Positions 46,901 to 49,932 of a stretch of DNA of 50,351 nucleotides are shown one piece after another. The notes below the pieces were generated by a model that saw nothing but the letters and a program-made list of their open reading frames with translations, searched no databases and had not been told where the DNA came from. Made by a program: the position numbers and the translations under genes. This DNA comes from Bacteroidota bacterium (GTDB lineage: Bacteria > Bacteroidota > Bacteroidia > Bacteroidales > VadinHA17). The DNA is taken from NCBI GenBank assembly GCA_011042635.1, contig DQWH01000099.1, positions 1-50,351 on the forward strand, given 5' to 3'. The first letter of the stretch is position 1, and each line of letters begins with the position of its first letter.

Positions 46901-47000
46901 TCCGGGATTCCTTTATATTGCCGTTGCGGGAATCATTTTTCTGGCCCTGCTGGCCTTGTGGAATCAGAAACGCTTCGCGGCGGAGCCTACCGGCGATTGA
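43908..47000 (+). CDS. ccsBA: Cytochrome c biogenesis protein, ResB-CcsA fusion (System II)
   Basis: This 1030-residue protein joins the two heme-handling subunits of System II. The N-terminal ResB/CcsB-like part (about 1-450) has four membrane helices and a large extracytoplasmic domain. A further extracytoplasmic domain (about 480-720, opening '[23 protein letters not shown]') precedes the C-terminal CcsA part. That part contains the tryptophan-rich heme motif '[21 protein letters not shown]' and likely heme-axial His residues in '[11 protein letters not shown]', '[12 protein letters not shown]' and '[10 protein letters not shown]'. It exports heme and attaches it to CxxCH motifs. Its stop overlaps the 3' end of the convergent gene by 14 bases. 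No c-type cytochrome gene lies nearby. Confidence 0.93.
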   Translation: [1030 protein letters not shown]

Positions 47001-49932
47001 TAGAGAATCCGTAAATATCCACGGAGAAAATGGATTCGATCACCGGCTTGTTCAGGAGGGGAAGCCAGGCAATACGGGTTCCCGCCTGGATAGCCCAGGG
47101 AATTCTCAACACGTGAAAATCGAATGTCAGCGAGCCGCCGAAAGAGTACAGGGGTTCCTTGAACTCTTCGTATGAGGATATTTCTTCGTTCCATTCCCGG
47201 TAACGGTTACGGGCCGCATCCCCGAAAAGCCCCCCGCTCATACGCTTGATGTACAGCACTCCGGGAATGCTCAGGTCGGGATACCACAGGGGAAAAACAT
47301 AATCGGAACGAAAACTTTCCAGGGTCTCGCTGAAGGCGGGCTCATAACCCCTGGGGAATTCCCTTTCTGCCGTAAAGGCATACCGGTCCAGGTTCTGCGT
47401 CTGATAACTGCCCTCCAACCTCAGTCCGTGATGGCTGAAAAACCCGGGAAGGAACAGGACGGTCTTTAGTTTGAAGGAAGGATTGAATGATTCCGCCTTT
47501 CCGGGAACCGACAGGTGGATGAGATCCACGATTCCCCCCCATTTTGGATACAAATCCCTGGGTGAGGTTTTGTGCAGAAAATAATAATACAAACGGGCGC
47601 GGGACGATATGATGTTCTGTTCAAACAGGCGGCTGCTCAGGTTGAAATATATATCGTTGTAAGCCGTCAGCTGAAGCGAGGGGACCAGGGCGCTGTAAAA
47701 ACGGTTCCGGGTCAGATTCAGGGGAAGGGAGATATTTGCCTTGAATGTGCGGTCCGGGGCGCCCGTATTTCCCCTGTAATTAATATTCTGCGGTTTTAGC
47801 AGGGATACTTTTCCTCCCTGCCGGTACTCGAGCCTGATCACCGGGAACCAGCCACGGTAAGTGAATCCTGTCATGAAGTGATGATCCCCGTTTCGGTAAG
47901 CATAGGCCAGGGTGGTGAGAGCCGTGCTGAGCAGATTCTGTGACAGCAGGGTTGCCCCGGGAGCTATATCGGGGTCTTCCAGGGTGAAATTTTCCAGGTC
48001 GAAATAAAAGGGCATCCAGCTGTGAAAACGGAAAAGGTTCCATCCTTTTCTGTAAGGTCTTGCTTCATATTCTCCCGCAGGAAGATCATCGGGTGCCGGT
48101 TCGGGGGGAATTCCTTCCACATCGGAGGCAAATCCCGTGAAAGTGTTTTCCACTGTTTCCAGCCTTTCCCATTGATCCGGTTCCAGCGGGATTTTCACAA
48201 TACGATGCCCCCGTGAATGGTAATCAGAATAGTACAAAATTCCGGCCTTCGTATCGACGGCCGGATCAAAGGCCCCATAGCGGGACGAGGTAAGCCGGTA
48301 TTGTTGTCTGGTCAGGGTATCCAGGGCGTATATGTTATCGATGCCCGAGTACGAGGAATGGTAAAGAATGTACTGCCGGTAAGAGGTGGTCATCAGAATG
48401 TCATGGTAGGAAGGTTGAATTACCTCGTTCCAGCGGCCTGAAGGGGTATGCACACGCGATATCCCTTTTCCACGGTGATCGAGTGTGATGACCAGCAGGT
48501 CCCGGTTGTTTTCCATCCATTCGGGCAGCATCAGAAAGCGGTTGTCAGGCGAGGGAATACTGTCAAGCCGTTCACCGGTGCGGGCATCCAGAATGATCAG
48601 GGCCGCCCGGTTCTGCGGATTCACTTCCACCGCTGCTATCTTGCCTGCGTCATGGGAAACAGCGGGCGCAAACAACCGGGTGCGGAAACTGAGCCGGCTG
48701 GTTTTTCCGGTCTTCAGATCGAATGTTTTGATCACTGAATACCGCCGGTTTCCCCAGCGTATATCCGGAACGTATTCCGACCAGGCTGCCAGGCGCCCTT
48801 TTCCCGAGAGTTTTACCGACGGTATGTTGCCGGGCGTGTGGATGATCTTTTCCTTTCCGTCGGGATAAATCAGGACGTACTGGGCCACCTGACCGATCCC
48901 CGTCTTTTCAGCCAGAACCATGCTGTCGGATACGGGTTGCGGAAAGCGGTAGCTGGTAAACAATTTGCCCGGGGGCGGTGAAACCGTTTCAAAGGAAGTA
49001 TAGGTTTCCCGGTGGGACTGTTCTTTCCAGTGCTGTTTCAGTTCGGTAAATGTTTGCTCAAAAAGTTTTCGCTTCGATAATCCCTCTTTGCGGAGGGTGA
49101 AATGCACCGGATTGAGAAGAAAGGGGTATTTTCCTGTATTTTCAATGACCTTTTGCCAGAGGCTATCTCCGTAATGTCTCCGGGCGAAAGCTACCATCTG
49201 GTATCCGTATTCATAATAATCGGGGACATAGGTTTTGTAAGAACCCAGCAGGATTTCGTCGAACCGGTAAAACTTGTCTTCCTCCAGTGCCCTGGCCCGC
49301 ATATTCATTTCAAAGGAAGGCAGGCGACCTCTTCCGCTGGGGGAAAGCAGGGTTTCGGCATATACGGCGTCCCCTTCAAGGAACCAGTCTCCGAGCATGC
49401 TGGTCACCGCGCCCGGTACCTGCTCCCCTCCCAGGTATGACAGTACGCGCGTAAAACCCCTGTTCAGCTTGTCTACCTGTACTACATGGCGGTACTCATG
49501 CAGAGCCAGTTGCTGAAGCCAGTTGTGTGGATAAATGTTCTGTGGCGGGGTGGTAAACAGCTCGATCCGTTTGGGAGCCCAGGCTACAAAACCGTTCGAC
49601 TCGGCCGTATGGTTATGCAGTATCACCGGGATTTTTCCGGGATCATGGTTGAGCGGACGGGCTACTTTTTCCCGGTAATATTCCAGAATATCAGCCATCC
49701 GGAAAGCATTTTCACGGAATCCGGCAGGATAGATCAACCGAAAATGGCATGTACTGAACTGTTCCCAGCGCAGGGTTGCCGGATCCTCACCTGTTGTGAA
49801 ATACTGGCCTGGAAGAGGGGCCGGAGGTTTTGCAAGAAGAACCAGGAACAGCAGAAAATACTTCCATCCTGTTCCCCGTTTTATCGGGCGGGAAATCGGG
49901 TATTTAAATAATACCGTAAGGCTGCAGTACAT
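46987..49932 (-). CDS. Large exported HEXXH / beta-propeller / beta-barrel protein
   Basis: This protein of about 981 residues has three parts. After a signal-like helix ('WKYFLLFLVLLAKPPAPLPGQ') comes a metallopeptidase-like domain with H145-EYR-H149 in 'LALHEYRHVVQ' and a candidate third zinc ligand, E186, in 'DWFLEGDAVYAET', a gluzincin-like arrangement. A middle region with repeated 'AVSHDAGKIAAVEV', 'NNRDLLVITLD' and 'YDILMTT'-like blades resembles a TolB/PD40 propeller. The last 300 or so residues alternate like an outer-membrane barrel but do not end in an aromatic residue. The track's start at 50343 adds 137 residues antisense to the next gene; ATG 49932 is chosen. Protease activity is inferred. 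Confidence 0.8.
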   Translation of the reverse strand: MYCSLTVLFKYPISRPIKRGTGWKYFLLFLVLLAKPPAPLPGQYFTTGEDPATLRWEQFSTCHFRLIYPAGFRENAFRMADILEYYREKVARPLNHDPGKIPVILHNHTAESNGFVAWAPKRIELFTTPPQNIYPHNWLQQLALHEYRHVVQVDKLNRGFTRVLSYLGGEQVPGAVTSMLGDWFLEGDAVYAETLLSPSGRGRLPSFEMNMRARALEEDKFYRFDEILLGSYKTYVPDYYEYGYQMVAFARRHYGDSLWQKVIENTGKYPFLLNPVHFTLRKEGLSKRKLFEQTFTELKQHWKEQSHRETYTSFETVSPPPGKLFTSYRFPQPVSDSMVLAEKTGIGQVAQYVLIYPDGKEKIIHTPGNIPSVKLSGKGRLAAWSEYVPDIRWGNRRYSVIKTFDLKTGKTSRLSFRTRLFAPAVSHDAGKIAAVEVNPQNRAALIILDARTGERLDSIPSPDNRFLMLPEWMENNRDLLVITLDHRGKGISRVHTPSGRWNEVIQPSYHDILMTTSYRQYILYHSSYSGIDNIYALDTLTRQQYRLTSSRYGAFDPAVDTKAGILYYSDYHSRGHRIVKIPLEPDQWERLETVENTFTGFASDVEGIPPEPAPDDLPAGEYEARPYRKGWNLFRFHSWMPFYFDLENFTLEDPDIAPGATLLSQNLLSTALTTLAYAYRNGDHHFMTGFTYRGWFPVIRLEYRQGGKVSLLKPQNINYRGNTGAPDRTFKANISLPLNLTRNRFYSALVPSLQLTAYNDIYFNLSSRLFEQNIISSRARLYYYFLHKTSPRDLYPKWGGIVDLIHLSVPGKAESFNPSFKLKTVLFLPGFFSHHGLRLEGSYQTQNLDRYAFTAEREFPRGYEPAFSETLESFRSDYVFPLWYPDLSIPGVLYIKRMSGGLFGDAARNRYREWNEEISSYEEFKEPLYSFGGSLTFDFHVLRIPWAIQAGTRIAWLPLLNKPVIESIFSVDIYGFSINRR

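Follow-up and report, generated by a model that had tools for sequence, protein, structure and literature searches.

Fusions of a TolB-like propeller to an Omp85 barrel were catalogued by Heinz and Lithgow in 2014 as the WD40-Omp85 class, which is uncharacterised and lacks POTRA domains (PMC4104836). An enzyme joined to an Omp85 barrel is known from the patatin-like protein PlpD, whose topology has been tested and whose enzyme domain is exclusively periplasmic (PMC11116518). In E. coli, the soluble periplasmic M48 peptidase BepA acts at the BAM complex, where it either matures LptD or degrades it (PMC8423444). The machinery that builds the outer membrane of Bacteroidota differs greatly from its E. 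coli counterpart (PMC12611786, PMC12578637), and little is known about outer-membrane quality control in this phylum.

Here we describe a gene in a 50,351-nucleotide stretch of Bacteroidota DNA (the window) that very probably encodes a peptidase domain, a propeller and a barrel in one chain, and whose product, taken as a whole, we explain with moderate confidence as a gluzincin-type zinc metallopeptidase that is tethered to the outer membrane and faces the periplasm. The protein shares with the WD40-Omp85 class the propeller N-terminal to the barrel and the absence of POTRA domains, a likeness that hinges on the Omp85 reading of its barrel. It differs in the conserved zinc-peptidase domain that precedes the propeller, which goes unmentioned in the survey's text on the class; the two are likened here by described layout, the window barrel being too divergent for the Pfam Omp85 model. 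What is new, as far as the text of the survey goes, is thus the conserved zinc-peptidase domain before the propeller, the propeller-Omp85 class itself having already been catalogued. We take PF00149 to denote calcineurin-like metallophosphatases, which are not proteases. The 'Metallo' Omp85 class ('Omp85-metalloproteases'), which the survey puts under this accession (PMC4104836), therefore differs from the window layout.

The other systems are likened to the window protein in narrower respects. PlpD has an N-terminal enzyme domain fused to an Omp85 barrel, but combines a phospholipase with a POTRA domain where the window protein has a peptidase and a propeller. TolB of the Tol-Pal system shares the propeller fold and profile similarity, whereas the propeller here is fused between a peptidase and a barrel. 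The likeness to BepA is one of proposed mode, that of a zinc peptidase in outer-membrane protein quality control; BepA belongs to another peptidase family and has no barrel, and we do not claim homology. We also considered BamI, BamM and BamP of the Bacteroidota BAM complexes, which, judged by their descriptions, are different proteins. An earlier, sequence-only reading of the window had not recognised any characterised protein of this layout, and among open-licence papers we likewise found none, the 2014 survey being the only related report; the layout is nevertheless not without precedent, given the catalogued propeller-Omp85 fusions and its occurrence in at least five clades.

Gene and domain layout

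The features of the locus are as follows.

46987..49932, minus strand: whole gene, encoding the peptidase, the propeller and the outer-membrane barrel as a single chain (open frame, 981 aa plus stop)
49807..49932, minus strand: putative signal peptide, residues 1-42, probably removed by signal peptidase through cleavage before Q43 (Q43 conservation and Q-rule)
49003..49803, minus strand: N-terminal peptidase domain, residues 44-310 (AlphaFold model of the domain alone and Foldseek)
49486..49500, minus strand: HEYRH, residues 145-149, two putative zinc ligands and the putative catalytic glutamate (invariant in 89/89)
49354..49377, minus strand: EGDAVYAE, residues 186-193, with E186 expected to act as third zinc ligand, as in gluzincins (invariant residues)
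48163..48975, minus strand: TolB-like beta-propeller of about six blades, residues ~320-590 (profile, Foldseek and model)
47014..48027, minus strand: C-terminal outer-membrane barrel of 16 strands, residues 636-973 (model and profile match to sister clade g3, described below)
47344..47358, minus strand: FPRGY, residues 859-863, in the loop that joins strands 11 and 12, at the position occupied in Omp85 proteins by the VRGF/Y motif of loop 6
50048..50351, plus strand: beginning of a divergently oriented gene for a TMEM260-like (PF11028) membrane protein, truncated where the contig stops (PF11028 match 50153-50350)

Without its stop codon the coding part spans 46990-49932 on the minus strand, giving 981 residues. 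A longer open frame reaches 50343, but its 137 extra codons overlap the start of the divergent gene, which makes 49932 the likely start. Q43, the expected first mature residue, is conserved in 84 of 89 homologues, in agreement with the 'Q-rule' for signal peptidase cleavage in Bacteroidota (PMC5837995). Comparison with the nearest relative gave dN 0.095 against dS 0.58 (dN/dS ~0.16), indicating purifying selection on the gene. The protein or its profile found a match in 48 of 60 relatives and in 239 of 297 genomes across the phylum, some of the phylum-wide matches covering the propeller only; a search of plasmid records for a homologue returned none.

An AlphaFold model of the whole chain, built with 46 aligned homologues, was confident (mean pLDDT 86.3, pTM 0.84) and consists of the peptidase domain (44-310), the propeller (~320-590) and the 16-stranded barrel (636-973), in agreement with the three parts proposed by the sequence-only reading. 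The propeller region contains ~26 strands in the model and matches TolB both as a profile against TolB chains (E 8e-9) and as a fold in Foldseek (E 2e-8), bearing out its earlier designation as TolB-like; its score against the TolB equivalog model (19.8 bits) lies far below the 343-bit cut-off. When the whole chain was submitted to Foldseek, propeller matches ranked first, and the search was uninformative for the barrel and the peptidase.

Putative zinc site of the peptidase domain

In the whole-chain model, residues 44-310 make up a mixed domain in which the HEXXH motif lies on a helix spanning residues 138-156 and E186 on a second helix, 182-196. The domain was also modelled by itself (pLDDT 89.7), and the best Foldseek match of this second model was the peptidase domain of collagenase T (4ar8, family M9; E 8e-6), followed by an M61 peptidase (E 2e-4) and, more weakly, by M1 aminopeptidases and LTA4 hydrolase. 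These matches all belong to the gluzincins of clan MA. TM-scores to solved gluzincins were ~0.5, which points to a distant gluzincin relative and not to a collagenase. The domain has the features of clan MA(E), namely HEXXH, a glutamate on the following helix and the fold of the catalytic domain, and shares with M9, M61 and M1 gluzincins and with PF13485 the HEXXH motif and the EG.A third-ligand helix; among characterised gluzincins, none was found fused to a propeller and a barrel. The window protein itself has no match to Peptidase_MA_2 (PF13485) and scores above the Pfam cut-off for no peptidase family, and members of its sister clades do match PF13485.

H145, E146, H149 and E186 are identical in 70 of 70 full-length sequences of the close set and in all 89 homologues once 19 from across Bacteroidota, including other classes of the phylum, are added. 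G187, A189 and E193 are likewise invariant in 89/89, as are E124, R201, Y240 and G243. In shuffles of the protein, HEXXH alone arose in ~4% of cases and its combination with a correctly spaced EGxA in ~0.06%, and a chance origin of the motif is ruled out much more strongly by the conservation than by this shuffle test. The earlier suggestion that HEYRH and EGDAVYAE make up a zinc site therefore stands, with positions 145 and 186 confirmed, a HEXXH that does not vary among homologues and a predicted gluzincin fold around it. From motif and fold we infer that H145, H149 and E186 would bind zinc and that E146 would activate water. With the site conserved in 89/89, we rejected the reading of this domain as an inactive relic.

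Barrel and membrane topology

Secondary structure of the predicted model gives 16 long strands in the C-terminal region, as expected for the outer-membrane-type barrel that had been proposed from the sequence. The FPRGY motif sits between the strands 836-846 and 870-883; R861 and Y863 are at least 90% conserved, G862 is at least 90% conserved in a phylum-wide barrel set, and F. johnsoniae BamA has LRGY at the corresponding place. The window barrel matched no Pfam family, Omp85 included, and the window family profile had no direct match to BamA and TamL of relatives. A stepwise link runs through sister clade g3, whose profile aligns with the window family over 898 columns (E 7e-54; barrel alone E 3e-7) and whose barrel in turn matches the BamA profile (E 3e-8), reversed-sequence controls of these links being negative. 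The barrel is likely of the Omp85 type, because it has 16 strands at the C-terminus, an RGY motif in the strand 11-12 loop and this stepwise profile connection.

In Omp85 proteins, the domains N-terminal to the barrel are periplasmic. Combined with the periplasmic enzyme of PlpD, this makes the periplasm the side that the peptidase most likely faces, an orientation which, arguing by analogy, we consider quite probable. The sequence-only reading had allowed for either a surface- or a periplasm-facing protease; the periplasmic option gains from the Omp85 topology and from PlpD, and the surface option is disfavoured. In the latter, the peptidase and propeller would leave the cell through the barrel of their own chain by a type Vd-like mechanism, and the enzyme would digest external proteins. 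Bacteroidota often digest external polymers, a habit that would suit such an enzyme, and secreted collagenases are the proteins that the peptidase matches best in structure. PlpD, however, was itself once proposed as a case of type Vd secretion and keeps its enzyme in the periplasm, and a folded two-domain passenger of ~550 residues that includes a propeller would presumably fit poorly through a 16-stranded barrel; we regard a surface protease as unlikely.

According to the periplasm-facing model that we favour, Sec would export the protein and signal peptidase would cut it before Q43. The 16-stranded Omp85-type barrel would then insert in the outer membrane while the propeller and the peptidase stay in the periplasm, where the propeller would probably dock substrates or partner proteins, as in TolB and BamB. 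The peptidase would mature envelope proteins at the outer membrane, or cleave them for quality control, in a BepA-like manner. By the BepA analogy, this maturation or quality-control role is the likeliest one, and we propose it tentatively. If this is true, a conserved tethered protease whose sister forms, both active and inactive, occur across the phylum would qualify as a candidate for the missing quality control of the Bacteroidota outer membrane.

Sister clades and neighbouring genes

A tree built on the peptidase and propeller resolves five groups, each corresponding to one side of a branch with support of 99-100: the window family, a second group of distant homologues, g3, g2 and g4. The layout thus occurs in at least five clades of Bacteroidota, the window family and four sister clades. 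L169, a g2 member from the same family, scores above the Pfam cut-off for PD40 and Omp85 and below it for Peptidase_MA_2, a set of domains that corresponds to the layout proposed in the sequence-only reading; two further sister-clade members, L171 and L176, are above the cut-off for Peptidase_MA_2. All 8 sampled members of g4 have lost both the HEXXH and the EG motif but keep the layout, and g4 is therefore probably a dead enzyme, that is, a pseudo-peptidase fused to a propeller and a barrel. Since the layout can persist without the zinc site, retention of the site in the window family is selected.

The same clade bears on another explanation, in which the window protein would be a barrel-assembly factor, 'BamA plus BamB in one chain', whose peptidase fold serves as a chaperone or scaffold with catalysis secondary. 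That g4 keeps the layout without a zinc site implies that the layout is useful without catalysis, the combination of an Omp85-type barrel with a propeller suits the idea, and such a role has been proposed for WD40-Omp85 proteins in the 2014 survey (PMC4104836). The zinc site of the window family never varies, however, which points to strong selection on catalysis, and we find this explanation quite unlikely. Within the preferred reading as a tethered protease, the Omp85-type barrel might itself take part in inserting or extracting outer-membrane proteins, so that the attached peptidase and propeller would determine on the spot if a client undergoes maturation or destruction, the catalytically dead sister clade serving as a regulator or chaperone counterpart; this extension is speculative and unlikely.

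The window's own genome contains one member each of g2 and g4, both on contig C25. The g4 paralogue (about 23540-26752 on C25) has lost the zinc site and is conserved across relatives. An active-looking paralogue (HEMVH ... WMVEG) lies on the same contig at about 14717-19626 and adjoins genes that, by eye, encode the ATPase and binding protein of a putative zinc or manganese ABC uptake system.

The start of the protease-barrel gene is separated by ~115 bases from that of the TMEM260-like gene. Of 65 close loci, 53 contain a TMEM260-like homologue, which usually lies immediately beside the gene in divergent orientation, and TMEM260, the animal relative of its product, starts protein O-mannosylation (PMC11292533). 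This conserved neighbour suggests a possible link to glycoproteins instead, in which the window protein would process or turn over O-glycosylated envelope proteins together with the TMEM260-like protein. Against this, the surroundings of the homologues in the distant loci contain no TMEM260-like gene (0 of 19 loci read), and the pairing in the close loci may reflect shared ancestry of gene order. We therefore set the TMEM260-like gene aside as a functional partner while keeping it as a clue to this rival, which we judge improbable.

On the other side of the gene, positions 43908-47000 encode a 1030-residue ResB-CcsA fusion for cytochrome c assembly (Pfam), which lies tail to tail with the protease-barrel gene and overlaps it by 14 bases.
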